A DNA stretch of 64,000 nt from Phoenix dactylifera (taxonomy: Eukaryota > Streptophyta > Magnoliopsida > Arecales > Arecaceae): positions 4,095,154-4,159,153 of the forward strand of contig NC_052407.1 in the NCBI RefSeq assembly GCF_009389715.1, read 5' to 3'. Under the pieces are notes generated by a model. It was not told where the DNA came from. It saw nothing but the letters and a program-made list of their open reading frames with translations, and did not search any database. The translations under genes and the position numbers were made by a program. Of the stretch, positions 15,496 to 64,000 are shown in pieces (positions within the stretch are counted from its first letter, which is position 1; each line of letters begins with the position of its first letter).

Positions 15496-15503
15496 TATAA
15501 ATA
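15496..15503 (+). promoter_or_regulatory. TATA box of chitinase gene B
   Basis: TATAAATA lies 64 bp before the gene B ATG. The same box at the same distance precedes gene C. Transcription should start near 15,525, giving a leader of about 30 nt. Confidence 0.75.
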
Positions 15504-15559
15504 GAACCATTCTGCAGTCCATTCCTCACCGGACAAAGGAGCACCATCACTTACTTCAA

Positions 15560-16477
15560 ATGGCTTCCTCAAACCTCCTCTCTTCTCTCCTCCTCCTCCT
15601 CCTCCTCCAAGTCCTCCTCACCCTTCTCGCACCAGCATCAGCTGCTGGCTCCAATCTCTTCAGAGAATACATCGGGGCCGAGTTCAAAGGCGTCCGGTTC
15701 TCCGATGTCCCCATCAACCCCGGTGTCGAATTCCACTTCATCCTCTCCTTCGCAATAGACTACACCACCGATTCCCCAGCTCCTACTAACGGGCGGTTCA
15801 ACATCTTCTGGGACACTGACAACCTCTCCCCCGCGCAGGTAGCTGCCATTAAGCAGAGCCATGGCACCGTTAAGGTTGCACTCAGCCTCGGCGGAGATAG
15901 CGTCGGCAGTGGCTCGGCATATTTCCAACCATCTTCCATAGATTCTTGGGTCAGCAATGCTGTCAGTTCGCTGACGGGAATCATCAGACAGTACAATTTG
16001 GATGGTATTGATATCGACTATGAGCACTTCCATGCCGATCCCGATACTTTCGCAGAGTGTATCGGGCAGTTATTGACGAGGCTAAAGAACAAGGGTGTCA
16101 TCTCATTTGCTTCCATAGCTCCTTTTGATGACGATGAAGTCCAGAGCCATTACTTGGCCTTGTGGAGGAAGTATGGGCATGTCATAGACTATGTCAACTT
16201 CCAATTCTATGCCTACGATGCAAGCACGACGGTATCTCAGTTTCTGAGCTACTTCGCAAAACAGAGCTCCAACTATAATGGAGGGAAAGTATTGGCAAGT
16301 TTTTCCACGGATGGAAGTGGAGGGTTATCGCCGGAAAACGGCTTCTTCCGTGCATGCAGCAGCCTCAGGACGCAGGGAAAGCTTCATGGCATCTTTATTT
16401 GGTCTGCGGATGACTCCAAGAGCAATGGTTTCCCCTACGAGAAGCAATCGCAAAACTTGTTGGCAAGCGCTCGTTAA
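15560..16477 (+). CDS. GH18 chitinase 2-like protein, gene B
   Basis: Intronless, 305 aa. The open frame extends upstream to 15,245, but the ATG at 15,560 is chosen because it follows the TATA box by 64 bp and starts a strong signal peptide ([20 protein letters not shown], then APASAAG as likely cleavage region). The mature protein starts near [14 protein letters not shown]. The GH18 catalytic motif is intact (DGIDIDYE), with SLGGDS before it and [11 protein letters not shown] and [13 protein letters not shown] after. It resembles tulip bulb chitinase-1-type enzymes; an endochitinase role in defence or storage tissue is inferred. It differs from gene C by only about seven residues (e.g. T/S in WDTDN, A/S in SPAQV, Q/E in IIRQYN, K/N in LKNKG, P/R in GFPYEK), so the B/C duplication or conversion is recent. 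Confidence 0.9.
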
Positions 16478-23951: not shown

Positions 23952-23959
23952 TATAAATA
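23952..23959 (+). promoter_or_regulatory. TATA box of chitinase gene C
   Basis: TATAAATA 64 bp before the gene C ATG, in a context identical to that of gene B. Confidence 0.75.
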
Positions 23960-24015
23960 GAACCATTCTGAAGTCCATTCCTCACCGGACAAAGGAGCAC
24001 CATCACTTACTTCAA

Positions 24016-24933
24016 ATGGCTTCCTCAAACCTCCTCTCTTCTCTCCTCCTCCTCCTCCTCCTCCAAGTCCTCCTCACCCTTCTCGCACCAGCATCAGCTG
24101 CTGGCTCCAATCTCTTCAGAGAATACATCGGGGCCGAGTTCAAAGGCGTCCGGTTCTCCGATGTCCCCATTAACCCCGGTGTTGAATTCCATTTCATCCT
24201 CTCCTTCGCAATAGACTACACCACCGATTCCCCAGCTCCTACTAACGGGCGGTTCAACATCTTCTGGGACTCGGACAACCTCTCCCCCTCGCAGGTAGCT
24301 GCCATTAAGCAGAGCCATGGCAACGTTAAGGTTGCACTCAGCCTCGGCGGAGATAGCGTCGGCGGTGGCTCGGCATATTTCCAACCATCTTCCATAGATT
24401 CTTGGGTCAGCAATGCTGTCAGTTCGCTGACGGGAATCATCAGAGAGTACAATTTGGATGGTATTGATATCGACTATGAGCACTTCCATGCCGATCCCGA
24501 TACTTTCGCAGAGTGTATCGGGCAGTTATTGACGAGGCTAAAGAACAACGGTGTCATCTCATTTGCTTCCATAGCTCCTTTTGATGACGATGAAGTCCAG
24601 AGCCATTACTTGGCCTTGTGGAGGAAGTATGGGCATGTCATAGACTATGTCAACTTCCAATTCTATGCCTACGATGCAAGCACGACGGTATCTCAGTTTC
24701 TGAGCTACTTCGCAAAACAGAGCTCCAACTATAATGGAGGGAAAGTATTGGCAAGTTTTTCCACGGATGGAAGTGGAGGGTTATCGCCGGAAAACGGGTT
24801 CTTCCGTGCATGCAGCAGCCTCAGGACGCAGGGAAAGCTTCATGGCATCTTTATTTGGTCTGCGGATGACTCCAAGAGCAACGGTTTCCGCTACGAGAAG
24901 CAATCGCAAAACTTGTTGGCAAGCGCTCGTTAA
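24016..24933 (+). CDS. GH18 chitinase 2-like protein, gene C
   Basis: Intronless, 305 aa, near-identical to gene B over both coding sequence and flanks. The same signal peptide is encoded in the same (CTC)n-like leucine tract. The catalytic motif DGIDIDYE is intact, and the [17 protein letters not shown] and IFIWSADDS blocks are present. The start follows from the TATA box 64 bp upstream and the signal peptide; the open frame upstream of 24,016 is leader. It differs from B at about seven positions, mostly surface-type residues. Predicted to be secreted and chitin-hydrolysing (inferred from family). It is the last member of the array; homology to the other units ends a few hundred bases downstream. 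Confidence 0.9.
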
Positions 24934-40829: not shown

Positions 40830-41416
40830 CCTTTCTGTTGTTTTTTGTTTGTTTTTTTTTTTTTTTTTTTTGGTGAAAACGACGATTCATATAGCTCTAA
40901 CGTGAGTACATCCTGCCAAGTCACAAGAAAATAAAAAGTACAGAGAGGACAGTAAATCTACTGTGGGCGTCCAAAGGATCTCTCCGGAGTGTCGCGCAAC
41001 AAAGAAGGCGATCCAGTCTGCTACCCGGTTCGTCTCTCGGAACACATGTGCTGCCTGTAAGTCATCCAACTCCATAGCCAGCCTACGAGTCTCACGAACA
41101 AGAGGATGACCATCTCCGTACCTGTCTGCACCCTGGATCCAATCGATCACCACCGATGAGTCCTCCTCAAGGTACACCCGCTCGGCACGAAAAGTCCGCC
41201 TCGCGCAGGATATGCCCTCCCAAACTGCACGCAGCTCTGCCCCAACTGCAGTAAGTCCTATCGTGCGGCGTCCTCCGGCTGCAACCAGCCTGCCAAAGTG
41301 GTTTCTGATCATAAATCTTACACCTCTGGATATTCCATCCATCAACATGCTACCGTCAAGATTTATCTTGAGATGGCCAAGGGATGGGGGCATCCTTTCT
41401 GTTTTTCCGGTAACAC
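40830..41416 (-). mobile_element. 5'-truncated LINE: RNase H domain and poly(A) tail
   Basis: On the minus strand it encodes the LINE RNase H end (LKINLDGSMLMDG, ELRAVWEGISCARRTF, RETNRVADWIAFFVARHSG), then a 3' region and an A-rich tail (poly(T) on plus, 40,830-40,871). It is bracketed by the perfect 10-bp repeat CCTCAGACTA (40,820-40,829 and 41,417-41,426). The frame from about 41,393 down to 40,890 is still open, so it is younger than the LINE at 11.3 kb, which belongs to a related family. Confidence 0.8.
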
Positions 41417-41538
41417 CCTCAGACTAGTGGCCTTTCAGTGCACAACCACAACAATAAGAAGAAAAAGAATCAATGACTGCCTTGGTTTCCTGTCTCTGGG
41501 CAACTCATAAGCAATTCAAGCTTTGTTCTTTCATCCCC

Positions 41539-43179
41539 CTATCCAATGCTTCCTAGTTCCAGAGCCAGCCCATTCAACACTCCATAGATTTCTTTGGCCT
41601 GAGGATGCAACACTCCACCAGCCACAAACTCATGCGCCGCACCCTCCACCTCAATCATACTACACCCTGGTTCCTTCCTCACCCACTTCTCCTTCATCCT
41701 CGTCCTTGTGCTCGCGGCATCACTGAATTCCCCGGCGCCTGCAAAGGTGTTCGACAGAAGCACATACCCGCCGCTGTCCCTAGGATCCAACTCCATGATC
41801 CGTGCCCCAGCCCGCCCGCCAATCTCGGCGTTCCCATGTATCCTGCAAGCTGAAAGCAGTGATCCCCATAAAAGAGAATCAGGTCTCATGGGCATTCTTT
41901 GAATCAACTCTTCGGCCTCTTCGAGAAGCCCCGCTCGGCCAAGCACATCAACCATGCAGCCATAATGCTCTATTTCTGGTTCAATGTTGTAAGCATCGGT
42001 CATTAGCGAAAAATAGTGCATTGCTTCATCCACCATGCCTGCATGGCTACAAGCCGTTAGAATGCCAACAAAGGTAACGTTATCCGGTCTTAAGCCGGAG
42101 CATTGAAGCCTCGAGAATACCTGAATTGCTTCTTGGAAGCGCCCATGAACTCCTAGGCCCAAAATCATAGAGTTCCATGATGATAACCCTTTGATCGAGG
42201 CATTCTCGAACACTTTGAGAGCCTTATCTATGCTACCACATTTGCAGTACATATCTATTATAGCTGTGATTACGATTGAATTAAGTTCGATATTGTGCTT
42301 TTCAATGCAAGCATGGATCCATTCCCCTTGCTCCAAAGCTCCCAAACCAGCACATGCACCTAACAAGCTCACCAGAGTATTGGCGTTGGGCTTCACTCCC
42401 TCCTTCTGCATCTGATGAAAGAGATCCAATGCGTCCTTATTCCTGCCATTTCTGACGTATCCGCTGATCATAGCACTCCAAGTCACCACACTTCTGAAAG
42501 ACATCTCATCAAACAAGTGTCTCGAGTCGTCGACGCGACTGTTCTTTGCTAGGCCCATGATCATGGAGTTCCAAGACGCTACGTCGTCGAAGCTCGAGCA
42601 CTCATTGAACAACCTTGAAGCTTCGGTTATATGGCCACAATTCGCGTACATGGAGAGCATCGAGTTGCGTATATAAGGATCGGATGCATGCCCGAGCTTT
42701 ACGACCATGCCATGGAGCTGAGCGCCATGATGGGCTAGGCCAAGGTGGGAGTAGGCGACAAAGAGGGAAGGATAAGTTGTCCTCTGAGGCTGTTCGGGTG
42801 AGTGCAGCATGTCGAAGAAGAGGGAGATGGCTAGGTGGGGAGTGGAGCTCCGGGAGAGGCCCCTGATGAGGGTGTTCCACATGAAGGCATTGGGTTGTGG
42901 GTGGTGGGAGAAGAGGAGCATGGCATAGTTGAGGTCACCATAGGGGGAGGTGGCACAGAAAGCTAGGACTCTGCTGATGGCTATTGTATCTTTGGCGAGG
43001 CCAGTTTTGATTATTTGTGAGTGGAGCTGGTGGAGGTCTCTCATGTTGGTGCATTTGGTCTCTAGCATGGAGAGAGGGGTGTGGTCAGTGATGAATTTGG
43101 AGATAGAGGCTGAGGAGGGTACTGCAAAGGCAGATGGATGCATCTCTCTCTTTGCTATTTGGTGGGTGGGTTGTGCCAT
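41539..43179 (-). CDS. PLS-class pentatricopeptide repeat protein, 546 aa (At2g42920-like)
   Basis: Intronless, starting at the ATG at 43,179 after an in-frame-clear leader. After a variable N-terminus come the N-terminal signature MRDLHQLHSQIIKTGL and tandem PLS repeats: NAFMWNTLIRGLSRSS, DVASWNSMIMGLAKNS, SVVTWSAMISGYVRNGRN, LSSWNSMILGLGVHGR, DNVTFVGILTACSHAGMV and others. It ends in an E-type domain (LLWGSLLSACRIHGN, GYVLLSN, PGCSMIEVEG, HEFVAGG). No DYW deaminase domain. Such proteins bind organellar RNA and act in RNA editing or processing, with a deaminase supplied in trans. Overall order resembles Arabidopsis At2g42920, annotated chloroplastic; transit to plastid or mitochondrion is inferred, and the N-terminus is not a clear transit peptide. 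The complete frame argues for a functional gene. Confidence 0.92.
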   Translation of the reverse strand: MAQPTHQIAKREMHPSAFAVPSSASISKFITDHTPLSMLETKCTNMRDLHQLHSQIIKTGLAKDTIAISRVLAFCATSPYGDLNYAMLLFSHHPQPNAFMWNTLIRGLSRSSTPHLAISLFFDMLHSPEQPQRTTYPSLFVAYSHLGLAHHGAQLHGMVVKLGHASDPYIRNSMLSMYANCGHITEASRLFNECSSFDDVASWNSMIMGLAKNSRVDDSRHLFDEMSFRSVVTWSAMISGYVRNGRNKDALDLFHQMQKEGVKPNANTLVSLLGACAGLGALEQGEWIHACIEKHNIELNSIVITAIIDMYCKCGSIDKALKVFENASIKGLSSWNSMILGLGVHGRFQEAIQVFSRLQCSGLRPDNVTFVGILTACSHAGMVDEAMHYFSLMTDAYNIEPEIEHYGCMVDVLGRAGLLEEAEELIQRMPMRPDSLLWGSLLSACRIHGNAEIGGRAGARIMELDPRDSGGYVLLSNTFAGAGEFSDAASTRTRMKEKWVRKEPGCSMIEVEGAAHEFVAGGVLHPQAKEIYGVLNGLALELGSIG

Positions 43180-43876
43180 GGTTTTGAGGTTACCAAGTGG
43201 ATAGGGAGAAGGTGTGATGTGAGGCTGCTATGAGTTCGAGTGTTCTGTGGTGAGCATTTCTGCTGTCTAGCTTTTGCATCATAAGATGTTATCATCATAT
43301 CTTCATTCAATTTTTTTCCCATAAAACAAAAAATAAATGGTGCATTGACTAAATCTGCCACTGTACACTGAAGGATTTAATAAAGACTCGCATAGAGGCA
43401 AGTCTGAAGACATGGATTGGGCATAGAAGGTGTTCAGGTAGGTCAATAATAAGATGTATGGCCATAGAAGACAGATGGTCTTCAGTGTAGCTCATGCAGA
43501 AATGGTGCATGTTTGGCTCAACGATCAGTGTCCCATTATAGATCAGCCTATATGGCTTTAACTGGCTGGAAAGGGAAGTGGCTAATCTCCAATTTATGTT
43601 AGCAATAGCAGAACTTCTGATGGAATGACAAGAGAGGATTCTAAGAGATTAGCAAGTAATCAAACATAAATTTCTTGGTAACAAATATATCTGGATCTCA
43701 AGATTGAGAAGTACAGGAATTTATTGACCAGTAGGTTAGCAGATGATGATTCAGAGAGGGCCATATATTTTGGGACTGTCAAGTATTGAAGGGGTGCAGT
43801 TGGAAGATTACAGAAAATGTACGTATCCTTGGAAGGGCCACATGAAGTTTCACGGCTGCACAAAATAAAAGCTATG
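43180..43876. other. PPR promoter side and spacer before the Copia LTR
   Basis: No gene visible. The part next to 43,180 should contain the PPR promoter and leader (minus strand); no TATA box was assigned. Confidence 0.4.
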
Positions 43877-44217
43877 TGATAGAATTTGAGAAGAAAGAAT
43901 AGAAACAGAAACTATATTCTGTTCTCAGGATATGTTGAAACAGAGTTGTATGTAATAGCATTTCATTGAAAATGTTTTACAAATAAGATCTGGAATGAAG
44001 CTACAGCAACAGAGAAAACAGAAAGAATGGAGTGAATACATTATAGTTCAGAATTACATTTATTTATATAGTAATGGAATGTATTCTGGATTGTTCTATG
44101 ATCCGGTTGATCCAGCTGGAGTTGATGTAGTCTGTCCAGCTGGGAATGAAGCTGAATCAGTTGATCCTCTAATTGATTCAGTTGAGTCAGTTTGCTTGAA
44201 GCTTCTAGAACTCAATA
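43877..44217 (-). repeat. Copia 3' LTR
   Basis: 341 bp; on plus it starts TGATAGAATTTGAG and ends AACTCAATA. Followed internally by the polypurine tract. Confidence 0.9.
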
Positions 44218-44219
44218 CC

Positions 44220-45302
44220 CCCCTGCAAGCTGATGGGTGTGGAAATACCCGAAGCTTGGATCTGATAAGATGATGACGAGCAGTAGGTAGCGACTTTGTA
44301 AATATATCTGCCGGTTGATCAATAGTGGAGATATGCCTTAGGCAAACTTTATGAGATTGAACTTTTTCCCACACAAAATGGTAATCTACCTCAATATGTT
44401 TTGTTCTGCCATGAAAAACAGGATTAGTGGCAAGAGCTAATGCAAATACATTATCACAGTAAAGTAGTGTAGGTGATGTCCTAGCAATAGAAAAATCATT
44501 AAGTAATCTGCGAAGCCATTTTATTTCTGAGGTAGTGACAGCTAGAGCCCGATATTATGCTTCAGTGGATGACTTCACAATAGGCTGCTTCTTTGCATGC
44601 CAGGAGATGAGATTGGACCCAAGATAGATGCAATACCCCGTGGTAGAACGTCTGTCATCTGTATCACCAGCCCAATCTGAGTCGCAGTAAGCTGGTAGAG
44701 CAAAGGAGCCTGAGGTGAAGAATAGACCATGATCAAGAGAGCCTTGAACATATCGAAGTATCTGTTTTAACATGATAAAATGATGTTGCAGCGGTTGATG
44801 CATATATTGACAGATGTAATTTACTGCAAAGGTGATATTCGGTCTAGTAATTGTAAGATACTGTAAAGATCCTGCCAGGCTATGGTAGAATTGTGGATCG
44901 GGATATGGATCTGTCATATTGCTAGGAGCTTTTGATTTGAATGATAATGGAGAGGAAAGAGGACGACAGTGCTCCATACCCGCTTTTTGTAGCAAAGAGA
45001 TGGCATATTTTTTCTGACTAAGATGTAAGCCGATTGCCGTAGAAGATACTTGAATTCCCAAAAAATAGGATAAAGATCCCAAGTCCTTCATTTTGAATCT
45101 TCCTTGAAGAGTGGAGATAAGGTTTGTGACAGATTGCAAGTTATTTCCGGTAATTAAAATGTCATCCACATACACTAGAAGATACGTCACTGTGTCATCC
45201 TGATTATGAATCAGTAGAGAGGAATCAGCACTGCTCGTGTGGAACCCCAATTTGAGAAGAAAATTTGTGAATGTCGCAAACCACTGTCTTGGAGCCTGTT
45301 TA
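44220..45302 (-). pseudogene. Copia C-terminal RT and RNase H
   Basis: QAPRQWFATFTNFLLKLGF, the catalytic YVDDI box (LLVYVDDILITGNN) and RNase H (PAYCDSDWAGDTDDRRSTTG, KQPIVKSSTEA). A TAA replaces the expected codon after STEA; the frame then continues with YRALAVTTSEIKWL and HISTIDQPADIFTKSLP to about 44,240. Confidence 0.88.
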
Positions 45303-45334
45303 CAGTACAATAAAATTAGAGAAAGCCGACCCAT

Positions 45335-45610
45335 TTTTGCCGACGCTAGGAGAAAGCGTCGGCAAAATTTTCTACCGGGTCAACTTTTGCCGACGCTTAT
45401 TAAGAGCGTCGGCAATTTAAAGGAATAGACGACGCTTAAAAGCGTCGGCACAGCCTTCTAGCGAAATCGTCGCTGGAAGGCGTGGGAACTGGACCTAGAA
45501 CGACGCTTTTAAGCGTCATTTTTGGCCCTTGGATAACACGACGCTTATAAGCGTCGAATATACCCGACGCGTAGAAGCGTCGATCCAGGACGACGCTTAT
45601 AAGCGTCGTC
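45335..45610. repeat. Left subterminal palindrome array of the CACTA element
   Basis: About seven inverted-repeat motifs based on CGACGCTTATAAGCGTCG, with central variants (TTTTAA, TTAAAA, GTAGAA, longer loops). Several are perfect self-complementary palindromes, e.g. near 45,592-45,609. Confidence 0.85.
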
Positions 45611-48037
45611 TAAGGGTAGAATCCCTCAAAACTCAGTGCCCGACCCCGATCGAACCCTCATTCTGCGCTGGCTACTTCCCCTATTTCTCCTCTCCGGCTT
45701 CCGTCTTCCTCCTCTCCGGCACTGCCCTAGTCAACCGTCTTCCTCCTCTCCGGTGCCGACCGTCGGATTCCAACCTCCTCTCCTCCTCCCTTCTCTCCGG
45801 CGCCGACCGACCAACCCCGATCTCTTCCACCTGAGGTATTTTTCTCCTCCTCCCTCTTCTCCCTCCTTCTCGCTTGTTCTCCTCCTTCTCCGCCTCTTCT
45901 TGTTCGTGTGTTCGTGGGTGTTTTTTTCTTTTTTTACATATTCTCTAGCTTTGCCTCCGCCCGAGGATCTCCTCCTCCTCCCTCCTCTCCGGCGCCGTCC
46001 GAGCAGCCCTCAAACCTCGATCGACTCGGCAACCCTGATAAGTATGATCGTTGAACAATTATTATTTTTTATTATTTTGTTGCTATTTGGCTAAGTTAAA
46101 AAATTGATTAATTCTACAATCTTTAGGAAGGGCTTGGGATTAATTTTCTAGGTCTGCAGATAAACCAGGCAGAGTCTAGGTCAATTTGGTCCCTTCATGC
46201 CAACTGAGAAAAAGCAGAAAATGCCCATATTGTTTAGGGAAGAAGGACTTATACTGTAGGATCCTGTGTATGAAGTCAAATTTATTGGACCTACAAATGC
46301 TGATTTGATAATTTTATTGGATCTGAAGATCAAGTGCCAGTCTATGTCATCTAATGCCAGCCAGTAACTTAGGTCGACAAACACCTATTTATTCTTTGTT
46401 ACTTTGTAATCAAAGAAGGTATCATTGTCTAGTATAGTATGGTATTATTGGTATTTTATCTTCTGTTTGGAACATTCAAAAGTATATCATAGTTTATCAG
46501 AGTTATAGTTTTCTGACCGGACTATCCAAACAAAAAGGCCTTCAATAGTGACCTAGAGGTAGGACTCATCTGCCACCTTATAATAAATTTTGGTAGATAA
46601 CAGTCAGGTAAATTCAAGTGCATGAATGAGGCATAAAGGTTTCTTTTGATGTTTATGATATCTAATTGTTGTTCATCTTGTCAAACTTCCATATCCTATG
46701 CATCAATGAACACATAAGCATATGGTGACTGACTGTGCTTTAAAGAATATCCTTTGTAGCTCATTAGCTAGTAAAAACTTTAAAATCATATGGGTGATAC
46801 TTGAGAATTTGCTTGCTTGAAAAATCATCAATTTCATGCAATTTCCTGATATCTTTTCGGATTGCCAGCTACTGCTGTTACCCTTTTCTGAATAAAAAGA
46901 CTGCTGTTAAATTAATAGTGCAGAGTCCATTTTGCAGCATAGATGAAAACTTGTCATTCTGTTCTGTTTAAGAGATTTCAGTGACTTGCACATCCTGGGA
47001 TAGTTACAAGCATTCAGCCAAGTCCTGGCGGTCACACCACACTTCTTCAGACCTAGGTACTTTACCTTGGAAGAGAGTACTTAACAGCAAGAAATTGACC
47101 TGCTTGTGAAATCAGGGATGTTAGAAAGCAAGGAATCAATCTACCATCGTACATACTACTGGAAAAAAACAAGCTTGGTTGGGTTGCCTTAAAACACAAG
47201 AAGGAAAAAAAAAAGATGCTTAAGATGTTATTTGCTATCTTTGCACTAACATAGTTATGGCTATTCTTTTACATCAGCAAAAGAAGATATACTTTTACTG
47301 CCGTAGAAAGTTGAAGTTATGATCATTGAAGTTATGACAAAGAGACTAGAAACATATATATTGCAAAAAAAAAAAAACCATCTAACCTCAAATGTCCCAT
47401 TAGGAGTTATATTGTACTGTTATAAAAAAAAAACTACGGTAGCCATCTTATAAAAATCTTACATCTTGTCTGATATATATCTTCTCATTGGCAGCAAACA
47501 ACTCGTGTAAAGGGCTCCAAGACTTTAATTTCAGCTTGTATGAGCTACTAGATAGTATTTCTTTCTATCCTGAACCAATTTATCTGCATATATTCCCAGC
47601 ATGTCTTAATATTAAGTGATTTACCCTATACTCATTTGCATATGGAACGTACCACATATAATTTCAACTGGTAACCTGCAAGGTAGTGACTGTACTCATA
47701 TCGAAAGGTTGTCGTTAGGCACCATCTGGTAACCTGCAAAAGCAGAATTTAACTAATTCCAGGAACTGAATTCTCAAGTATGTCTTTGCAGTGTTATTCC
47801 CTCACAAAAAAAATTTTTTTTGCACTGATATTTCATCAAGATGTCCAGTAGAAGTACTTTACTTAATTTAAGGAGTTTCATGTTTCAATGTCAATGACTG
47901 CATCAAAAAATCTGCGAAGGATGCGGAGAATATTCTAGTTAAAATAGTTGAGATTGGTTTAGGACAGGACTTGCCGGAAATGTCAAACCTGCTTGGATCC
48001 AAATATTGATTCTTTTTTGTGCATACCAGGTAACAAT
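45611..48037 (+). other. CACTA leader and non-coding left arm
   Basis: 45,640-46,040 is CT-rich and repeats TCTCCGG(C/T)(G/A)CCGACC-like words. A donor-like CCTGAG/GTATTT near 45,835 suggests a 5' untranslated exon for the TNPA-like gene. 46,100-47,990 is AT-rich with no recognisable ORF; a TNPD-like gene would be expected in an autonomous element and is absent. Confidence 0.45.
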
Positions 48038-49880
48038 ATGCTCCGAGGGAGACGATTTAGAGATGTGGAGTTCCAGCATTCTCAGGTGGGATCTACTTCT
48101 GATCAGTCCCTACAGTCCCAGCAGCCATGTGAGCATCAGCAGCACGAGTCAGGATCTCAACGCGAGCCTCCTGCTGATTGCCCGGAGGATGAGCTCCGGA
48201 TCCAGGGTAATTCGATTTAAAGTTCATATTTTATGTTCATATTTGTCTTCAACTTTTTAAGACATATTTTATTTAATTTTAATAGATGGACAAGGGACGG
48301 TGAGGACGAGACGGGGACCCACTCAAGCAAAGGATGTGTGGAAGCTTCCTCTGGGTGAGAAGATTATCATCCGATGCAACGAATTGGGGCAGCCCATCAA
48401 TAGAGCTGGAAGTCTACTATCAAGCTTTTTAGGATCGGTTGCACGCAAGGGTCAGCTGTGTCCGCTCAACTATACGAAGTGGAATGACATACTTCCTTCG
48501 TATAAGGTTGAGCTTCTTAAACTTATAGAGGTAATAAATTGAATTTATTCTTTTTAATTCGACACCTTCTGTATGTTAATTTGCTTTGTACCATAATTTT
48601 ATTTTAGAGGTTTAATATTATTATAACATTCTGTACCTTGTTGTAGGGTAAGTTTGTACTCCCTCCAGAGAGCCATGATTGGGTGCTAAAGTCCCTCAAC
48701 CGCAAATGGAAAGAATATAAAGCAAAATTGAAGACGGACTTCAAGCGCGAGGGTATGACAGAGGAGGAGGTTGCTCGTGTGACTCCTCCTGATGTATACC
48801 CTCAGCAGTGGAGGGAGCTTGTTCACTACTGGTTTTCTGAAAGAGGACAGGTCATGTATATTGTTTCAATATCTTCTATTATCTTTATTACTAATATAGA
48901 TTGCAAATATATACATTGAATCATATTATACTGTGTGCTTTTATTTTGGCAGACATATTCTAATATTGGTAGAGCTGCACGAGCATCTCAAGCAGTTCCT
49001 CATACTTCAGGCTCGAAGAGTTATGCGAGACGTAGAAATGAATTCGTAAGTTCTTTTGAAACTATTTGAAACTCTACTAACATATAGCACGTATCATGAT
49101 ATATAGTTTGCCCATATACTTTCCGTATGTGTAGATAGTAGAGCATGGAAGGGAGCCTGGTGAGGTAGAGTTTTATAAGATGACCCACACTCACCGAGAT
49201 GGCAGCTTTGTCCGGGACGAGTCGAGAGATATAGTTGTATGTATTCATTTTTTATTTGATCATAATTATTTTATTAATTTTACTTTCTTTAAATTATTAA
49301 TGTGACTGTTTATTTTTTTGAGAGAGATATAGGAAAGAGCTACAAATCTCATTTCAGAGCGCGTCGGGGAGTCATCATCATCCGACGCGGCCAGTCGCGT
49401 CGAGGCTCAGGTCTATGCAGAATTGATGGGCCCAGAACGTTATGGACGCGTGAGGGGTTATGGTATCGGAGTTACCCCCACTCAGCTGTCTGCAGTGAGC
49501 CGATATACCCAAGATGCCAGACAAGGTACTAGCACTGCAGAGGTTTGTAGTTTGAAGACAGAGATGGCACAGATAAAGCAGTCATATGAGACAAGGATAG
49601 AGGAGATGAGGCAGAGTCATATGACTGATATGGCGGAGTTGAAACAAAGCCAAGAGTTGAAGATACAATCTTTGCAGGACCAGCTTGACCATATTTCATC
49701 CTTTTTGCAGAGATTTGCTCCTCCGGTACATAACTAAATCTATTTGAATATTTTATGTAATTATAATGTATTCTTGTATGAGCGTGATGACTTTCGTATT
49801 TTTAGTTTCTAAAATATTTTTTTTTCTTGTAGGTTGATGATACTTCATCTACTCGTAGAGATGATGATGCCGACCCTTGA
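48038..49880 (+). CDS. TNPA-like CACTA protein (Ptta/En/Spm family), 417 aa, seven exons
   Basis: Exons: 48038-48206, 48286-48530, 48647-48850, 48953-49045, 49135-49236, 49333-49725, 49833-49880. All have GT-AG borders, keep frame and end at TGA. Start MLRGRRFRDVEFQHSQ; the ATG lies just after an acceptor, so an untranslated first exon is likely. Core: WKLPLGEKIIIRCNELGQPI, LNYTKWNDILPSYKVELLK, FVLPPESHDWVLKSLNRKWK, RELVHYWFSERGQ and VEHGREPGEVEFYKMTHTHR, the usual order in plant Ptta/En/Spm 'transposase_24' proteins. A Gly/Tyr-rich linker (YGRVRGYGIGVTPTQLSAV) precedes a coiled coil (about 340-400: KTEMAQIKQSYETRIEEMRQ and on), suggesting dimerisation. The maize relative TNPA binds subterminal motifs rather than cutting DNA; by analogy this protein may bind the element's palindromes (inference). 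It is intact in contrast to the wrecked Copia host. Confidence 0.85.
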
Positions 49881-50128
49881 TACATATTGTAGATTGTGTA
49901 CTTAGGAATTTGACTTATATGTTTTTAAAATTTTGGAGATTCCTTTGATTAATCTTGTATGATGATCATGAGATCTTTTTTGAGCAACATGATAAGTAGA
50001 ATCTATCAAAACCTATGTGCCTTCTTCCGCTTTCCTTCATTGTTAGAATGGAATGCAGCATCCATTCATTTGCTTTTCTAATTAATTGCTGTGAGTTCAT
50101 TTTGAATCAAATTTTATTCTATGAGCAG

Positions 50129-50211
50129 GTCACTTGACAGCTAGGAGTGATGTCTACAGCTTCGGGGTTGTCCTTCTTGAGCTCTTAACAGGACGCCGGT
50201 CTGTGGACAAG
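50129..50211 (+). pseudogene. Captured receptor-like kinase exon fragment
   Basis: After an acceptor (TATGAGCAG) the plus strand encodes [20 protein letters not shown] followed by RRSVDK, kinase subdomains IX-X as in plant receptor-like cytoplasmic kinases (PBL/RLCK-VII style). It breaks off after VDK into unrelated AT-rich sequence. The true intron-exon border argues for capture of genomic DNA rather than cDNA. Confidence 0.85.
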
Positions 50212-50465
50212 ATATTCTATATTTTCTGATTGTATCAATCTTTTTTCTGAATGGAACAGGCATGGAGGCAGGGCTTATGCTTTGTGATTGCCAGCTTGTC
50301 CCAGGATCACTACAGATTGGCATTTATGGACGACTTTGTAAGTACGGATCACTTGATACCATTTTCAAATTAGGAATTTGTTTGTCCTCTGTTATTTTTT
50401 TTAGAGTAAATTCTGAGCACTCATCTTTTTCATGTCTTCATTCTTTTTTATCTGGGGTGTTACAG

Positions 50466-51105
50466 GAACCTTCTAGTCATGTGGCTGATTCTACTAAATC
50501 TGACAATGACAATGATGAGGTTGCAGCCATGGCAAAGTCCTTAAAGGTGTGGTGCCTTTGTTCCTGGCAACCTTCATCTAGTAATTATATTAATGTTTGT
50601 GATATTACTCTGGCAGTAGTAAGCATTAGGATGTGCTCAATTTTATTTCCCAATCTTTGCTGGAAAGCCAGATTATAAGAAAGCATAACAAAAAAAGCAG
50701 TCCATTCAAACCAAGAGCATAGCATCAATTGTATTGCCTGATGTAGGCCCAGTAATTGTGCCACTATGGGATCGAATATTTGAATTATGACTAATCTTCA
50801 TTGAGATTTTTTAGGGGAAAAGACATCATTTTAAACATGTACCTTCATTACAGAAAAGGTTCTGGGTTTTTGACATTTTCATTTTTTGGATGTGCTGGGG
50901 CACATATTGTCATATATTTAAACAACAATGAGCTAAATTTTGGCATGCTTATCATATGATGTGTTTCACATACTTTCTATTGCAGAAGAAGGCAAAGGAG
51001 TTTAAGCAGCAGGAAGCCCATGAAAATGTCAATGCTGAGTCATATATTGTCAATGCAGAAAATGCGCGTTCTAAAAAGAAGCTGAAATCTTCCAAGTCTA
51101 ATTAA
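50466..51105 (+). pseudogene. Captured two-exon C-terminus of an unidentified host gene
   Basis: Exon 50466-50546 (acceptor GTGTTACAG, donor AAAG/GTGTGG) encodes EPSSHVADSTKSDNDNDEVA and on; exon 50986-51105 (acceptor CTATTGCAG) encodes KKAKEFKQQEAHENVNAESY and a lysine-rich tail ending SKSN, then TAA. The phases are compatible. The acidic stretch and basic C-terminus suggest a nuclear or nucleolar protein; the family was not recognised. Confidence 0.6.
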
Positions 51106-51805
51106 TCAAAGGCCAGTTTCAATCACATGGAGAGAGGGGACAGGATTGCTTTTTTCCTTTGATTTTCTTTATTGAAACAAAAGCACTGTAAGTCCTTTCC
51201 AGAATCTGGTAATACTGTCAAATGAGTGATGCTTTGCCCTCTTTCTGGAGCTTATATATGACATGGGGCTTTGTAGGTGTTTTTATCTTATAAACCGAAA
51301 GGAGTAGAAGTGAAAGCTCAATTTTCAGGTTGGCTGCTCTGCGACGCGATGATCCTAGTACTTTTGTTTTGAGCAACTGCTTCATACCGTCATGGTGTTA
51401 AGAACCAACCAACAATTATATGCTGTCTTGTAACACATCAGTTTTGAGGGTGTCAAAATCAGTTGAACAGGTCGACTGTTTTTAGCCTTTGTACATTGCA
51501 AAGACTGCAACGCTGATGAGGGTTATTAATAGGAACTGGCAATTGACAGGTTACTGGTTTGACCGGGGGAAAACACATGGTAGATTGTATACTTAGGAAT
51601 TTGACTTGTATGTTTTTAGAATATTTTTGAAGTACAATGTAATCAAATATGATAATATGAATGTAATCAAAATTCTTGTTTGTGACACATATTTTGTTAT
51701 ATATGTGATTCAGTGTATTTGTTTCTATTGTTTTGTAAGAATTTAATGTACACAGAGTATTTAAAAATTACTTTTACAAAAAAAAATTTTTTAAAAAAAT
51801 TTAAT

Positions 51806-52295
51806 GCCGACGCTTATAAGCGTCGGGAAAAGCAACAGGAACGTAAACCTAATAGCACGCCTTTAACGACGCTTTTAAGCGTCGGCCTAAACCCGTAGTA
51901 ACCAACCCTTCTCCCCGAGTCTGATAGAAGAAACGACGCTTAAAAGCGTCGGGAAAAGCAAGCCTTTAACGACGAGCGTCGGCCTAAACCCGTAGTAACC
52001 AACCCTTCTCCCCGGAGTCTGATAGAAGAAACGACGCTTAAAAGCGTCGGAAAAAGCAAGCCTTTAACGACGCTTTTAAGCGTCGGCCTAAAACTATAGC
52101 AACCAACCCTTCTCGCCGACGCTTATAAGCGTCGGAGTATGATAAAAGGAACGACGCTTAAAAGCGTCGTCATAGACCAACGACGCTTTTTTGACGCGTC
52201 GGGTTAAACCCGACCCACGCCCACCTGCCCGACGTCTGAGCCACGCTTTGCGAAGCGTGGGCTGGGAATTCGCCGACGCTTATAAGCGTCGGTAG
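51806..52295. repeat. Right subterminal palindrome array of the CACTA element
   Basis: About eleven motifs of the CGACGCTTATAAGCGTCG family, including CGACGCTTTTAAGCGTCGG and CGACGCTTAAAAGCGTCGG. Part is a tandem repeat of a ~100-bp unit (palindrome, CCTAAACCCGTAGTAACCAA, palindrome) from about 51,855 to 52,160, in about three copies. One motif has lost its centre (AACGACGAGCGTCGGC). Confidence 0.85.
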
Positions 52296-52340
52296 AGACA
52301 AAAAAAAGCGCCGAGAGTTATTCCTTCTTTTGTAGTGTTA

Positions 52341-53250
52341 AGCCCGTAAATGGCTTTCTTCAATAAACATACATGGTCAGGCTTCGATGTGTCAATGAAG
52401 CCTTTTGGTTGCTGCACGTAAACCTATTCATCAAGGGTGCCATGTAGAAAAGCATTACATACATCCAATTGACGTATAGGCCAATGACAAGATATAGCAA
52501 GACTTAGAAGAATCCTTATTGTAGGAAATTTTGCCACTGGACTGAACGTTTCCAGGTAGTCAAGACCATATTCTTGCTTATAACCCTGTGCAACTAGTCT
52601 TGCTTTGTAACGAGCTATAGATCCATCGGCATTTCTTTTTATTTTGTAGGTCTATTTGCAGCCCACGATATTTTGATTAGAGGACCGAGATACTAGTATC
52701 CAAGTCTGTTCATCCAGCAATGCATTGTACTCAGCTGACATGGCTGCTCTCCATCTCGAATCAGCAAATGCTTGAATAAATGTAGAGGGTTCAGTTGTAG
52801 CAGTGATCATATGATGTAGATCAAATATTTGAGCAGGTTTTAAAGAACCAGTCTTAGACCTTGTAACCATTGTGTGTTTGTTTGCAGAATTGTCTACCTG
52901 TACCGGTGTAGGAAGAGATGCTGAAGTTGGATGAGATGAAGGTGTAGGTGACTGAGATGAAGGTGCAGAAGGTATCTGTGACCGAGCCGTGGAAATGGGA
53001 CTGCCTGATGTGGACTGTAAGTCATAAGATGGTGGGACTAATAATGAAAACGACAATAATGGAGGTAGTGTTGATGTGGTGCTTTTAGCTTGGGCAAAAG
53101 GAAATGAAGACTCATCAAATGTAACGTGTCTGGATATAAACACCTTTCCTGTTTGAGGGTTGTAACATCTATAAGCCTTGTATTGAAGAGCATAGCCCAA
53201 GAATACACAGGGATATGATCTTGGAGATAGCTTCCCCAATCAGAGGGGTA
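52341..53250 (-). pseudogene. Copia linker and N-terminal RT part
   Basis: YPCVFLGYALQYKAYRCYNP linker, a Ser/Pro-rich spacer, then SRWRAAMSAEYNALLDEQTW and the start of RT, broken by a stop just after IVGCK. The block KPDHVCLLKKAIYGL reaches 52,341, where the CACTA target site begins; RT resumes at 45,302 with KQAPRQWFATF. Confidence 0.85.
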
Positions 53251-53258
53251 ATCTCATT

Positions 53259-53474
53259 TGAGACTGCCTCTCTTTCTTTTATAGTATGTTCGTATGTTTG
53301 GGCGACTGGACGCCGTGTGGTTAGCTGAACAATTGGAGTATCCTAGAGGGAGGCGAGGGGGAGATTCCCTACAGCGAGAGGGAGGCCTCGCGAGCCGGGC
53401 TTTGGAGATGAGGCCTTTTGGCGAAGCCAAGTCAACTTCGGCAGACCAACTCGAAGTGTCGAAAGCATCTATCA
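53259..53474. other. Foreign 216-bp block inside the Copia integrase-RT linker
   Basis: Between FGCQC (end of integrase) and GKLSPRSYPCVFLGY (linker) lies a GC-rich stretch not expected in Copia, bounded on plus by TGAGAC...CTATCA (TG...CA) and containing TATAAAAGAAAGAG on minus. It could be a small solo LTR or other insertion; no TSD was found. Confidence 0.4.
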
Positions 53475-54619
53475 GGTAGGGCCAACAATTCTGGGAAAAG
53501 CTTGTGACATTGACAACCAAACACTTTTAAAAAATGATAATCAGGCAGTCTCTGAAATAGTACTTCAAACGGTGATTTAGAGTTCAAACTCAAGATTGGT
53601 AACCTGTTTATCAGGTGTACAGCCGTTAACAAAGCTTCTACCCAGAAGTGTAGAGGGGCTAATGAGTGAATGAGAAGGCTCCTAACAGTTTCTAATAGGT
53701 GACGATGCTTCCTTTCAGCACTCCCGTTTTGTTCAGGTGTGTGGGGTGCAGATATTTGATGTTCAATTTCTGACAGGTGAAATAATTTTTGAAACTTGTC
53801 ATTGCAGAACTCCCCTCCTCCATCCGAGCGAAAAGACTTAATAGTGGTAGAGAACTGATTTTCAACTAAAGCTTTGAAATGTATAAAATGCTGATATACT
53901 TCAGATTTAGCAGTCATAGAGTATATCCAAGAGTATTTTGAGAAATCATCCAAAAACAGGACATAGAAACGATACCCACTGGTGGATGCCATGGAAGACG
54001 CCCCCCATACATCTGAATGTATCAGCTGGAGAGGTTTATTTGAGCGCTCCGTTGTTGATCCAAAAGGTAATTTGTGAGACTTTGCAAGGCTGCATGGCTG
54101 ACAGAATCCAGAGCCTTTAGTTGAGTGAGGAACTTTCAGTAGATGAAGTATTTGGGAAAGTGTTCTAGCCGCTGGATGCCCAAGGCGTTGATGCCGAATT
54201 GAAGAAGATGAACTGTCTGATAATAGTGCACACTGGTTATTGGAAATTGTAGCAGATTTTGGTGAAGCAAAGGAGAATGGAATGGTGTACAAGCCCTCAG
54301 TACAGCTCCCCTTGAATAGAATTTTGTTGGAATTCATGTCCTTGATTATGCAGCCGGTATCATCAAACATTATAGTGCAATTATTATCAGAGGCAAGCTT
54401 GTAAACAGATAATAAATTTCTGGAAATATGTGGCACATGTAATAATTTGGAGAGATGAAAAGAATAATTTGGTGTGTGTAAGGTACTGGTACCATGCTGA
54501 TTAATGGAAAGAGCATCCCCATTGCCAACTGTGACCTGTTCTTGTCCATGGTATTGAGTTGGCTTGTGAATAACGGAAGAATTGCTGGTGATATGGGATG
54601 TAGCGTCGCTGTCCATCAC
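53432..54619 (-). pseudogene. Copia protease-integrase segment
   Basis: Protease start MDSDATSHIT: the usual DSGA motif has Gly replaced by Asp. GAG-pre-integrase zinc finger HQRLGHPAARTLSQ...CQPCSLAKSH. Integrase core with D (HSDVWGA), D (RSDGGGEF) and E (PEQNGSAERKHRH) all present. The frame stays open until an unrelated GC-rich block near 53,480. Confidence 0.85.
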
Positions 54620-55732
54620 CTAGTCTTGAATACGAGATGGTCCAACAGATAAAAACGCTTGAGATTGATGTTGATTTGTTGCTAGACGATGAGGCTGATG
54701 CACATATTCTTGATTCAGACTATTGGTTTGTAATGAATTAACTCTCTTGTATCTGAAGTCAGTTTTGAACCAGCAATTGGCTGTTGTGTGTCCACGTTTA
54801 TAGCAGATTTGACATTCAGGTAGAGGTTGCAGATCTCTTGTTCTACTGGTTGATGACCCTGTAACAGGGAATTGAAAAAATCTGCCTCTACCTCAACTTC
54901 TATTGAAGAAAGTTCTGCCTCTGCCTCGGCCTCTTATAGCAGATAATGCATATGCTGGATCTGATGCAGCTGAGGGGTGATTTTTATTGTTTATGATAAG
55001 TTCTTTGCTACTGAGCAGAGCATAGAGCTCATCTAACGATATGTTAGATGCTCTAGTGCGAATGGCAGTGCTAAAGGAGTCATATGACTTAGGCAAACCA
55101 TTCAAGATGTGTAAGATCACATCCTCTGGATCTGGAACAGAACCGGCAGCTGAAAGGGCATCTACCTTGGATCTAATTGAATGGAGGTACTGATGCATTG
55201 GTAAATCATTTTTTCTGATGTTAGACAGCTCGTTCTTGAGCTGAATAATATGACTCCTAATAGAGGAGTTGAGCCTCCGATCTAATGTCGACCATATTTG
55301 GTGAGTATGTTCAAGATTAATGATGTAGGGGAGAATGGCAGATGATATCGTTGATGTCAATGCCGTGGCCAACAATTGATCAGTCAGTAAGCTATTTTGG
55401 TAATCAGATGCAGTAGGATCATCTGATGTGAGTCTTGAAAATGAGTTTTCATCCAGAAACTCAAGAAACCCACTGGCTCGAAATATTCGGACAATTTGTG
55501 AACGCCATATGAGGTAATTATCAGTAGACAGTTGAGAAGATACCAGAATGTGGATTTTTGATAAGACGAACTTGAGTTTTGGAGATAAGAGGCGATCATC
55601 ATCGCCTCTTGTGGTATCGTCTATTCCTTCGGTGCTTGCTTGCCTGATTTGGGTAGGAGGTCCTGAATTCATCTCTCGTTCTTCGTCTTCTTTAATATCA
55701 GGTAACGCTACCTCAAGATGGATTCGAGGCAT
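54620..55732 (-). pseudogene. Copia gag with zinc knuckle
   Basis: Starts at the ATG at 55,732 (MPRIHLEVALPDIKEDEE). Typical Copia gag (UBN2-like) features are LVSSQLSTDNYLIWRSQI, LENELSNI-like KNELSNIRKND and ILNGLPKSYDSFSTAIR, ending in RGRGRGR. An in-frame stop near 54,892 is followed in the same frame by a CX2CX4HX4C knuckle (CQICYKRGHTTANC). Another stop precedes the protease. Confidence 0.8.
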
Positions 55733-55896
55733 ATGATGATCATCTAACCAGTTTTACTGAAAGTGAAAACCGGTGTTACTGATTTTGCCAGATGAAGAAA
55801 AAAATATCAAGAAGACTCCAGAGAATCTCCATCTTCATTGCAAATCTTGGAAGCTGCGGTTTCATATCTATATGCAGGAACTTGGCTCTGATACCA

Positions 55897-56237
55897 TGAT
55901 AGAATTTGAGAAGAAAGAATAGAAACAGAAACTGTATTCTGTTCTCAGGATATGTTGAAACAGAGTTGTATGTAACAGCGTTTCATTGAAAACGTTTTAC
56001 AAATAAGATCTGGGATGAAGCTACAGCAACAGAGAAAACAGAAAGAATGGAGTGAATACACTATAGTTCAGAATTACATTCATTTATATAGTAATGGCAT
56101 GTATTCTGGATTGTTCTATGATCCGGTTGATCCAGCTGGAGTTGATATAGTCTGTCCAGCTGAGAATGAAGCTGAATCAGTTGATCCTCTAACCGATTCA
56201 GTTGAGTCAGTTTGCTTGAAACTTCTAGAACTCAATA
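55897..56237 (-). repeat. Copia 5' LTR
   Basis: 341 bp, same ends as the 3' LTR. The primer-binding site adjoins its internal edge, and TSD CTATG follows at 56,238. Confidence 0.9.
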
Positions 56238-59629: not shown

Positions 59630-60963
59630 GGAATCTCTTTAGGCTGTCTTCCTTGCTCTGCCCTTCGCGCTTCTCCTACTCTGTTAGAAATTTCCGAGGT
59701 AACATTTCATTGGATTATCGCGATATAGTTGTGATTTTAGCGGAATATTTGTTTTCGGGATAAGAGAGATCCGATTTGCTGGGATGTTTTTTTCCCGATT
59801 ACTCGTTTACTTTTAGAATTCCTTGGAGTTTTTTTTTTCATTGGTTATTTTTGGCGAATGTTTTGGTTTTCTGAGAAATTATTCGGTTTGTCACAAGTTT
59901 TACGGTGTTTTGATCTGATTTCTTCTTCGCTTTTTTTTTGTTCACGGGCGCTTCACCGGTGATCGGGGTTTTCGATTTCTGGACTTCGAAAAACATATTT
60001 GTTTCGTTTATGCCCCCAGGACGTAAAAAATGCTTCAATCAAGCTTGTATTGGATCACATGGAAAACAGCTAGCTTTTTGATGGTTGTTTCTCATAGGGC
60101 TTTTTCTTGTTCTTTTCCTTTGCTAGTTCTGTTGTGGAGTCTTTCACATTGTAGGAGATTCTATCTATATCGTGTAATCCTCTTTGTCAGCGTTATGGGT
60201 GATTGGAAGTTTAAGCACACACACTTGTTTTTGATATTCCTTTTTAGTATACAATATCTGAATATTAGAGAGCTTTTCTTTATGCAACAATGATGATTGA
60301 GGTTGTTAAAACTCTGATGTAATTGTTATGAGAACACAGTATACTTTATATTAGATTTGAACTTTTCTCAAGGTAAAGAATCTTGGTATGTTGAGGCTTC
60401 TCAAGGTAAAGAATCTTGGTATGTTGAGGCTTGTTGGTTTATGGTGGTCATTTTGTCCGATTCGAATCAAAGATTTGGGTGGGACTTGCAGGGAAGGTTG
60501 CCAATTGTTTGTATTTTCTGTTATCTGTCTATCAGCAGCTTGTGACTCATAGATTTTGAATTTTATGTCCCTAAATTTATTGGACTCCATTCTCTGTCTA
60601 AGGGTGTACTTGTCGTATCTGCCCATGCCTCATTATCTACTCCATTTATGCAGGATGTACGAGCAGCATGATTAATCTGTCATTTTCCAGTAGATTTCTG
60701 ATATAGTTTGTACCTTAGATTCTAGGTTTCGGTGTTGCTTGGTTGCACTTGTGTTGAACTTGTATTTGCTTTCTTGTTATTTTTGACTTAGTGATTTGTA
60801 GCATAGTAGCCTGCTTTTTTAGTCATATTTTTCACTAAAAGGTTTATTTTGGCCTTAAATGTTCTTTAGTTTCTTCTTATAATTCTGAGCACAGACTTTC
60901 TTTAACAAAAAAAATCTAAGCACAATCCTCTGAGAAAACTGCATGGGTTTACCTTTGTTGCAG
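59630..60963 (+). other. 5'UTR exon and 5'UTR intron of the GME gene
   Basis: A CT-rich leader ends at about 59,698 (CCGAG/GTAACA). The intron runs to the acceptor TTTGTTGCAG at 60,963, two bases before the ATG. The intron is T-rich and contains a 33-bp tandem duplication. Confidence 0.6.
60365..60430. repeat. 33-bp perfect tandem duplication
   Basis: TCTCAAGGTAAAGAATCTTG plus GTATGTTGAGGCT occurs twice in immediate succession in the GME 5'UTR intron. Confidence 0.85.
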
Positions 60964-60964
60964 A

Positions 60965-61380
60965 ATGGGCAGCACTGGGAATGAAGGAACCAATTATGGA
61001 GCATACACTTATGAAAATTTGGAGAGGGAGCCATACTGGCCTTCAGAGAAGCTCCGCATTTCCATCACTGGTGCTGGTGGCTTCATTGCCTCCCACATTG
61101 CGAGGCGTTTGAAAAGTGAGGGCCACTATATCATTGCCTCTGACTGGAAGAAGAATGAACATATGAGTGAGGATATGTTCTGCCATGAGTTCCACCTTGT
61201 TGACCTCAGGGTCATGGACAATTGCCTGAAGGTCACATGCGGTGTGGACCATGTGTTCAATCTTGCAGCTGATATGGGAGGGATGGGATTTATCCAGTCC
61301 AATCATTCTGTAATTATGTACAATAACACGATGATCAGTTTTAACATGCTTGAAGCTGCAAGGATTAATGGCGTCAAAAG
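60965..61380 (+). CDS. GME: GDP-mannose 3,5-epimerase, first coding exon (138 residues, partial)
   Basis: Starts MGSTGNEGTNYGAYTYENLE, characteristic of plant GME. It contains the NAD-binding Rossmann motif GAGGFIA (36-42), SDWKKNEHMSEDMFCHEFHL and FNLAADMGGMGFIQSNHS of the short-chain dehydrogenase/reductase fold. The exon ends in phase 2 after GVKR at donor AAAAG/GTTTGT. The enzyme converts GDP-D-mannose to GDP-L-galactose (and GDP-L-gulose) in the cytosol, feeding ascorbate synthesis and L-galactose-containing cell-wall polymers. The remaining ~240 residues, including the catalytic Tyr/Lys region, are not found before 64,000, so the next intron exceeds 2.6 kb. Confidence 0.95.
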
Positions 61381-64000
61381 GTTTGTGGAGTTCAATTCTG
61401 CTTTATTATCTTTGTAGTTCTAGGTTCAAGTATTGCTTGTTATCTTTTCTTGCTTGATTTAGGTCAAGTTTGCTAGATTTTTAGTTGATATTTTCCTCTC
61501 CCAGTGCCTCTTAGTTTGTTGTTATGTTGCCTATAATACTAGCAAGTCCATCAAATGATGACAAACTCCATTCTAGCTGGCATTCATAATCTAAAAAATT
61601 CATTGCAAGGCATCTAATGCTCAGGGCTGTCAAATGAACTGAGCAGCTCGAGCTAGCTTGAGCTTAGCTTGGGAAAAGCCCGAATCAAGCTCAGTTTGTA
61701 CCTATATAAATAAAGCTTGAACCAATAAAAATCAGGCTTGAAATTAATTTCAGCTGAACCAAAAATTGACCCAGCTTGATCATGTTCAACCTGGTAAGGC
61801 TTGAACATATTTCTATGGTATATAAAGATTCGCATACATTTATGTTGTACATAGTGGAGCATCAGATAAAGGCTTTTGTGATTTTTTCTATTCATTGAGT
61901 CAATTAAATGTTTAGTCAGGCTTGGTTCAGGTTTGAATTCAATATCAAACCAAGCTGAGATAAAACTTGAATCAAATTTTAATTCAGATTTACCCATGCC
62001 TGATTCAAGCTCAAATTGGTTTTTGCTTGATTTAGGGTCACCAGGATGATCTTTTAGGCTAGCGTTCGGCTCAGGTTGAACTTAAGCTTGGATTGATCCA
62101 AAATAGCAGTAAACAAATCAAGCTTGATTTCATATTTCAAGCATGAAATTAAAATGCGACCCAAGCCTGATCAAGCTGAGGTTGATTACATCCCTACTAA
62201 TGCTGCAAACTCTCTGCTCCCATATGCACATATGGACTAGTCCTCATGGTGCAAGACAAAATTATAAACAATAATAAGTTTGGAATGATTATTTGATGGT
62301 TGAGAAGCTTACAATTATAATAAGTATAAATTGTAAAGATATAATTTTACAAATATAGATTTAGAACTTATTCCTATCAAATAATTGGTGCATTTCTTTC
62401 TCTTACGTATTCTCAAATTTACTCTTCAAAAAATGTGTCTTCATGCAAAATAAAGAGTGTAACTATGCAAGGACTAGTAACTTAGCCCTTTCATCTCTTT
62501 TCCTTTTTCATCTTTATCGCGTTTAATTATTCAAGACGCATCATAGGCAAAATTGTTTCCATGTTAATCTATTACTTTAGCAAACTATGGAAAGGCTCCT
62601 TTTTCTATTTTTTCCTTCTTTTTTTGCCGTAGATTACTGTTTCAGGTTCTTATTTGGGTCAAGTATTGGGTGCTATCTTTTCTACTCTCTTTTCCTCTTT
62701 ATTTATGACATCTTATTTGGGTTTGATTTACATTTTCCAGATTGCAATAACCAAAATAGGAGACAAACCATAAAGTTCCCTGTTCAGAACAAGAAATGAG
62801 CATTGTGTTTATGTCTTTAAGCAATTGATGCTTATATTTAAGAACATAAACAAGAAATGTTTATGTCTTATATGAAATTAAGGGAGCAAAGTTAAGCTAT
62901 AAGATTTAAAAAAATTCATCTTATATGGCTTAAGATAGAATATATTTTATGATAGAGTTTCAAGATAGAAACTGTGTGCTCATTACCTTGATCAAGGTGT
63001 TCATAAGAAAGGTGTGGCAGTGGAATTGGGCTGAAAATGGGTTGGATATTATCTGACTCTATCCATTTCCTTATCTGGATCAGATTGCTTTTGAATAAAA
63101 ATCCTCATCCAATCAAATCCAGATAAATGCCTATGAATTTGATGGATATCAGATCCAGGTCTGGATATCTGGCATCTACAAACCACCTATATTTGGGGGA
63201 AAACCATTCAACACCACCTAAATAGCCACTATGACAAAATACAGTTTTGTTATATAATCATGGTTTATTATACTTATTCAAAAGTTTTCATGTTATAAAA
63301 TATAGTCGTTTCAAATATGTTGTGATATTCATATTTTTATAATTAATTCTTTTCATAAAAAGATCAATCCTTTTCCTCTGATAAAAAATGGAATATAAAT
63401 AACTTTATTCTATTCTCTATGATATTTTCAAAACCTTTCTATATAAAATATTTAAAAATATCAAAAACTTCTTAATGTTCCTATATTTGCATTTTTTTTT
63501 ACAAGCTATTTAAGAAATAGATAATTAATGTTTCTTTTTATTTACCCGGCAATTAAAGAGTGACAATATATTTAATATAGAAATTGTTTTAATAATTTTT
63601 ATATTCTATATTTTATTTAAATAATTGTTAATTTTTAAATATAATTTTAATACAAATCTGGTCGATCCAAACCCTTGGTCAAATCAGTCATCGTGCAAGT
63701 TCAATAACTACATCTTAGACAATTACTTGATTATTTTGCATCTCGTGCAATCTTGATAGTGGATTTCATTCTCATTCTTTGTGATTATGTCATTTATGTT
63801 AGTTTTTATTATTTAGTTCCACTCAAAATCTCATTTATAATTGCGTAATATCCAATTTAAACCTGTATTTAGTTGGAGAAAACGGATATAACTAATATCC
63901 GACTTGTATCTATAGCTATTTAAAACAAATACGGATATGTTTAATATTAGATTCATATCCATATCTGTTTTAATATTAATATGGATGCTTATTTTGGTTT
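61381..64000 (+). other. Long intron of the GME gene (continues beyond window)
   Basis: AT-rich, with no exon recognised. It contains a hAT-type MITE (61,622-62,196). The 63,010-64,000 part has repetitive GGATAT/ATCCAGAT-type wording and may be another repeat. Confidence 0.6.
61622..62196. mobile_element. hAT-type MITE (575 bp) in the GME intron
   Basis: Left end CAGGGCTGTCAAATGA; right end in reverse TAGGGATGTAATCAA. The perfect 8-bp TSD CTAATGCT (61,614-61,621 and 62,197-62,204) is the hAT signature. The interior is made of AGCTTGA/TCAAGCT-rich sequence with no coding capacity. Confidence 0.85.

Follow-up and report, generated by a model that had tools for sequence, protein, structure and literature searches.

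Background

In maize, the Spm element carries a large tnpD ORF within the intron-1 region of tnpA, its TNPA acts as suppressor and binds to the subterminal repeats, and its transposition requires both TNPA and TNPD, according to the available part of PMC2613891. The same part of that source describes the soybean CACTA element Tgmt*, the gene product of which has a transposase_24 (PF03004) domain besides tnp2. That CACTA elements capture gene fragments is well documented (PMC1947982, PMC8978399, PMC8195511, each as far as its available text goes), and soybean Tgm-Express1 and other Pack-CACTA elements carry unrelated host gene fragments with introns and splice sites, as given in the accessible portion of PMC1947982. 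In the Tpn1 family of Ipomoea nil the capture of host sequence is common and the tnp genes are present in few copies only; the available sections of the genome paper (PMC5105172) report no TnpA-only element, and such a layout would therefore be at least not common in Ipomoea nil.

The window analysed here is the whole stretch of DNA that was studied, 64,000 nt of Phoenix dactylifera contig NC_052407.1 (positions 4,095,154 to 4,159,153, forward strand), and its positions 45303-52337 are a non-autonomous plant CACTA (En/Spm-type) transposon. The date palm element shares the 3-bp duplication, subterminal repeats and a multi-exon tnpA with maize En/Spm and its defective dSpm/I forms, which are internal deletions, and its right end reads CACTA as theirs do, while it differs from them in having a Transposase_24 domain in its TNPA-like protein, 16-18 bp palindromes as repeats, a complete TNPA without TNPD, and host exons. 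It shares the PF03004 domain with Tgmt*, which in contrast is 20.5 kb long and has a tnp2 transposase, and the carriage of host fragments with Tgm-Express1, which is described in the available text as five host gene fragments, whereas the date palm element also keeps a complete TNPA-like gene. In comparison to Tpn1 it has the very TnpA-only layout for which that genome paper, in its available sections, gives no example.

The combination of a complete TNPA, no TNPD and host exons is uncommon and its capture junction is legible; the element is otherwise of a known kind. Within the part of the literature covered, no paper on elements with tnpA but without tnpD was met, which does not mean that they are unreported. 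The packFinder sorting of Pack-CACTA elements, in the available part of its description, requires that an element lack any transposase-protein match over 250 bp (PMC8903248). An annotated TNPA would probably be scored as one, and the strict Pack-CACTA label may therefore not apply here. The element matters as a natural one that could produce TNPA but no TNPD, whereby the binding, repression and anti-silencing by TNPA would be separable from transposition.

The explanation that we hold with good confidence is that this is a gene-fragment-carrying, non-autonomous CACTA derived from an autonomous one, which would have lost TNPD and gained host exons through break repair, and whose TNPA would still be open by recency.

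Ends and insertion site of the element

The element is flanked by two copies of TTA, at 45300-45302 and 52338-52340. Its left end reads CAGTACAATA and its right end, in reverse complement, CACTACAAAA, with 8 of the 10 first bases matching between them. The left terminal inverted repeat (45303-45319, plus strand) is CAGTACAATAAAATTAG, in which the third base is G, not C, and the right one (52320-52337, minus strand) is CACTACAAAAGAAGGAAT in the minus-strand reading, so that the left end is CAGTA and the right end CACTA. Given the CAGTA left end, the present mobility of the element seems doubtful.

The surrounding DNA is a Copia retrotransposon on the minus strand (43877-56237), with LTRs at 43877-44217 and 55897-56237 and with CTATG read as its target-site duplication; the CACTA element sits within its RT. 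To reconstruct the empty site, 200 nt of each flank were joined locally and one TTA was dropped. The joined flanks gave an uninterrupted minus-strand Copia RT frame over the junction (..AIYG/LKQAPRQWF..). The original prediction had taken the exact TTA duplication and the CACTA/CAGTA ends as the limits of the element and had placed it inside Copia RT; both TTA copies and both ends were located, and the local removal of the element restores the RT frame, which together give the 3-bp target-site duplication of the CACTA (En/Spm) superfamily and show an insertion into Copia RT. A single stop codon interrupts this RT frame upstream of the junction, and at least one disabling change is therefore present in the Copia itself.

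In addition, the ends are lined with subterminal repeat arrays of the kind that belongs to the CACTA (En/Spm) superfamily. The palindrome GACGCTTNNAAGCGTC occurs in 13 copies in the 64-kb window when up to 2 mismatches are allowed (12 of them exact), all within the element, in comparison to a mean of 0.06 and a maximum of 1 in dinucleotide shuffles. Five of the 13 copies, one with 1 mismatch, form the left array at 45431-45607, and the other eight form the right array at 51809-52290. Part of the right array is covered by a 98-bp tandem duplication of 2.4 copies at 51878-52118. A literature search by sequence did not find the palindrome in print.

The TNPA-like gene and the missing transposase

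The TNPA-like gene occupies 48038-49880 on the plus strand, with coding exons at 48038-48206, 48286-48530, 48647-48850, 48953-49045, 49135-49236, 49333-49725 and 49833-49880. Its six introns are all GT-AG and its 1254 coding nt give 417 aa with zero internal stops. The Pfam search found Transposase_24 (PF03004) over 131 residues, covering positions 2-137 of the 138 in the domain at an E value of 1.9e-33, which identifies the TNPA-like gene expected of the CACTA (En/Spm) superfamily and rules out a chance origin of the ORF; four further matches in the C-terminal part of the protein (0.017 to 0.11) were under their cut-offs. A PDB search with the protein gave no match up to E 1, and the viral contigs searched with it held no relative. 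In the genome-contig search with TNPA the pattern was matched by 29 stretches, of which 1, on a bacterial contig, was reported as a relative (query residues 321-378, 41%); we attribute this match to chance similarity in what is probably a coiled coil.

Ahead of the coding exons, composition, together with possible donor sites at 45836 and 46042, points to a CT-rich stretch at 45640-46041 (plus strand, start approximate) as a candidate untranslated exon 1, and 46042-48029 would be the candidate intron 1, with its acceptor at 48028-48029 just ahead of the TNPA start; both were predicted from consensus splice sites only. The TNPA transcript would accordingly have an untranslated exon (about 45.6-46.04 kb) that is joined over a first intron of 2 kb to the seven coding exons. 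A 38-nt CT-rich piece of the presumed 5' untranslated region, at 45780-45817, is repeated at 45972-46009 (89%).

If 46.04-48.03 kb is indeed intron 1 of TNPA, it is where TNPD would be expected. We scanned 45603-48040 and 49881-52300 in six frames with Pfam, with stops read as X and a threshold of E <= 1, and found no CACTA transposase domain in either. The matches obtained were DUF2947 (0.16), DUF4635 (0.12), USP32_N (0.03) and kinase (0.0043), all under the curated cut-offs, and 46042-48029 in particular had no Pfam match above cut-off. As a positive control, the unspliced 48032-49900 read likewise returned Transposase_24 in two of three frames (3.3e-12 and 1.7e-4). A PDB search with an open piece from 46-48 kb gave no match up to E 1. 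The scans thus turned up no TNPD/tnp2 transposase, which marks an autonomous CACTA, and the original prediction of a fully open seven-exon TNPA-like gene with no TNPD to be seen is supported in both respects, with a nearly complete PF03004 domain on the one side and no recognisable transposase domain in six frames outside TNPA on the other.

It could be argued that 46.0-48.0 kb still contains a degenerate TNPD whose divergence or short length puts it beyond the reach of Pfam, since the scans relied on Pfam domains rather than on direct comparison with a TNPD protein. We regard this as highly improbable in view of the six-frame scans up to E 1, which recovered no CACTA transposase domain by a method whose sensitivity was seen on the unspliced TNPA, and of the frames of 46.1-48.0 kb, which are full of stops. 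By analogy with maize Spm, the transposase ORF would have been lost from the intron-1 region with the TNPA transcript thereby spared; provided that 46.04-48.03 kb is intron 1, loss or replacement of TNPD there would leave the TNPA protein untouched. Movement of the element would then depend on a transposase from a relative, and its putative TNPA may be able to bind the palindromes of its own and of related elements.

Captured host exons and their junctions

Downstream of TNPA, the plus strand carries a kinase exon piece at 50129-50211, which by its PDB matches is of the RLCK-VII type. With 28 residues as the query, the PDB search at E <= 1 gave 404 distinct sequences; among the 60 of these 404 that were listed, the best were plant RIPK-type kinases (4e-9), followed by BIK1/PBL2 (5e-8). 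The 3' end of the exon is abruptly cut and is followed by an unrelated-looking intron and the last three exons of a second gene (50260-50337, 50466-50546 and 50986-51105, plus strand), which are in phase and end in a stop codon. Only its exon-intron structure makes this second gene host-like, and a PDB search with its 92-residue product gave no match up to E 10. The RLCK-VII exon is a host coding fragment between the ends, as is characteristic of Pack-CACTA and other gene-fragment-carrying CACTA elements. The pieces of host genes, estimated at ~1.2 kb in the original prediction, were thus confirmed and are now better defined, although their size was revised and the block is now about 1.6 kb.

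Two copies of the TNPA 3'UTR, at 49882-49971 and 51573-51660 on the plus strand, border this foreign block. The 53 nt directly 3' of the TNPA stop (49882-49934) are found a second time at 51573-51625, 47 of them identical and 6 different, and the gapped alignment of the two full copies scores 80, whereas 200 shuffles averaged 23 and did not exceed 41. The diverged duplication around the host block, which is newly noticed here and was absent from the earlier account, is likely a capture scar. The divergence of the copies (6/53) is greater than that of the Copia LTRs, which would fit a capture that predates the insertion or an origin of the two copies in two different relatives, a length of 53 nt being too short for a decision.

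A break in the TNPA 3'UTR was probably repaired, either by a template switch into host DNA with a later return to the element or by fusion with a neighbouring relative, and the entry of the host exons would in this way have left the 3'UTR duplicated on either side. Catoni et al. 2019 are said to have proposed a fusion model for Pack-CACTA. For other Pack-TYPE elements fusion is supported in the available parts of PMC8903248 (section 9) and PMC13317346. Applied here, two family members lying close to each other would have fused together with the host DNA that separated them, in place of the repair of a single break, and the element sequence on both sides of the block, with 3'UTR copies that differ at 6 of 53 sites as expected of two family members, speaks for such an event. 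We consider fusion a tenable though somewhat less probable course, as the element parts overlap by just about 53-90 nt, which would call for two independent deletions ending at nearly one point, and as a search at up to 3 mismatches met no relic of the palindrome from 45.62 to 51.80 kb. The limited overlap of the element parts appears to favour the single break. A readable junction of this kind, with host exons between duplicated element pieces, can help to tell break repair from fusion in the uptake of genes by CACTA elements.

Age of the insertion and maintenance of TNPA

The age of the surrounding Copia is an upper bound for the CACTA insertion. The two LTRs differ at 13 of 342 aligned sites, 12 of the differences being transitions, which gives a K2P distance of 0.039. 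With 1.3e-8 and 6.5e-9 substitutions per site and year, the divergence corresponds to about 1.5 and 3 million years, respectively. Since the element is nested in a Copia with this LTR divergence, its insertion is fairly young. We then used a simple neutral model, in which 4.5% of substitutions are disabling, splice sites are added and the indel rate is assumed to range from 0.15 down to 0 per substitution, for the chance that TNPA survives intact. Depending on the indel rate, neutral survival in the model was 0.27-0.67 for an insertion one quarter as old as the Copia, 0.07-0.46 at half the Copia age, and 0.005-0.21 at the full Copia age, where luck would be unlikely.

The original prediction offered two options for a TNPA kept without its transposase, namely selection on the accessory protein or recent loss of TNPD. 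The loss of TNPD fits better, given the position of tnpD in Spm, while selection does not follow from an open ORF; on the Copia LTR age and the neutral survival, we set selection aside as the default reading. A TNPA kept by selection would mean that TNPA-only elements are trans-acting regulators of their relatives, as repressors or anti-silencing factors, and the 417 open codons, the six intact GT-AG introns and the nearly complete domain agree with this, as do the suppressor function of maize TnpA and the activation of maize Spm by TnpA with demethylation (available parts of PMC2613891 and PMC10398659, respectively). We nevertheless judge it quite unlikely, for the case comes from a single copy and the fairly young insertion explains the open ORF without selection. 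That the element belongs to a multi-copy, TNPA-only CACTA lineage, in which TNPA is selected as a trans-acting regulator of the family and TNPD was cleanly lost from intron 1, is in our estimation very unlikely. In the explanation that we prefer, the open TNPA would be due to fairly recent insertion and needs no selection at this locus.

Other features of the window

Several other features were observed in the window. A long ORF of PPR repeats, which also has an E motif, lies next to the Copia at 41539-43227 (minus strand). Domain pieces of zf-RVT, RVT_1 and RVT_3 at 11710-13679 and 40887-41423, also on the minus strand, are probably relics of non-LTR elements. On the plus strand there are three related tandem ORFs of the GH18 (chitinase-like) type at 8105-9046, 15242-16477 and 23878-24933 (Pfam, 1.9e-13 to 2.6e-13 and 4.7e-13), and an ORF at 60920-61417 with an NAD-dependent epimerase domain (Pfam), which we presume may be an exon of a GDP-mannose epimerase.
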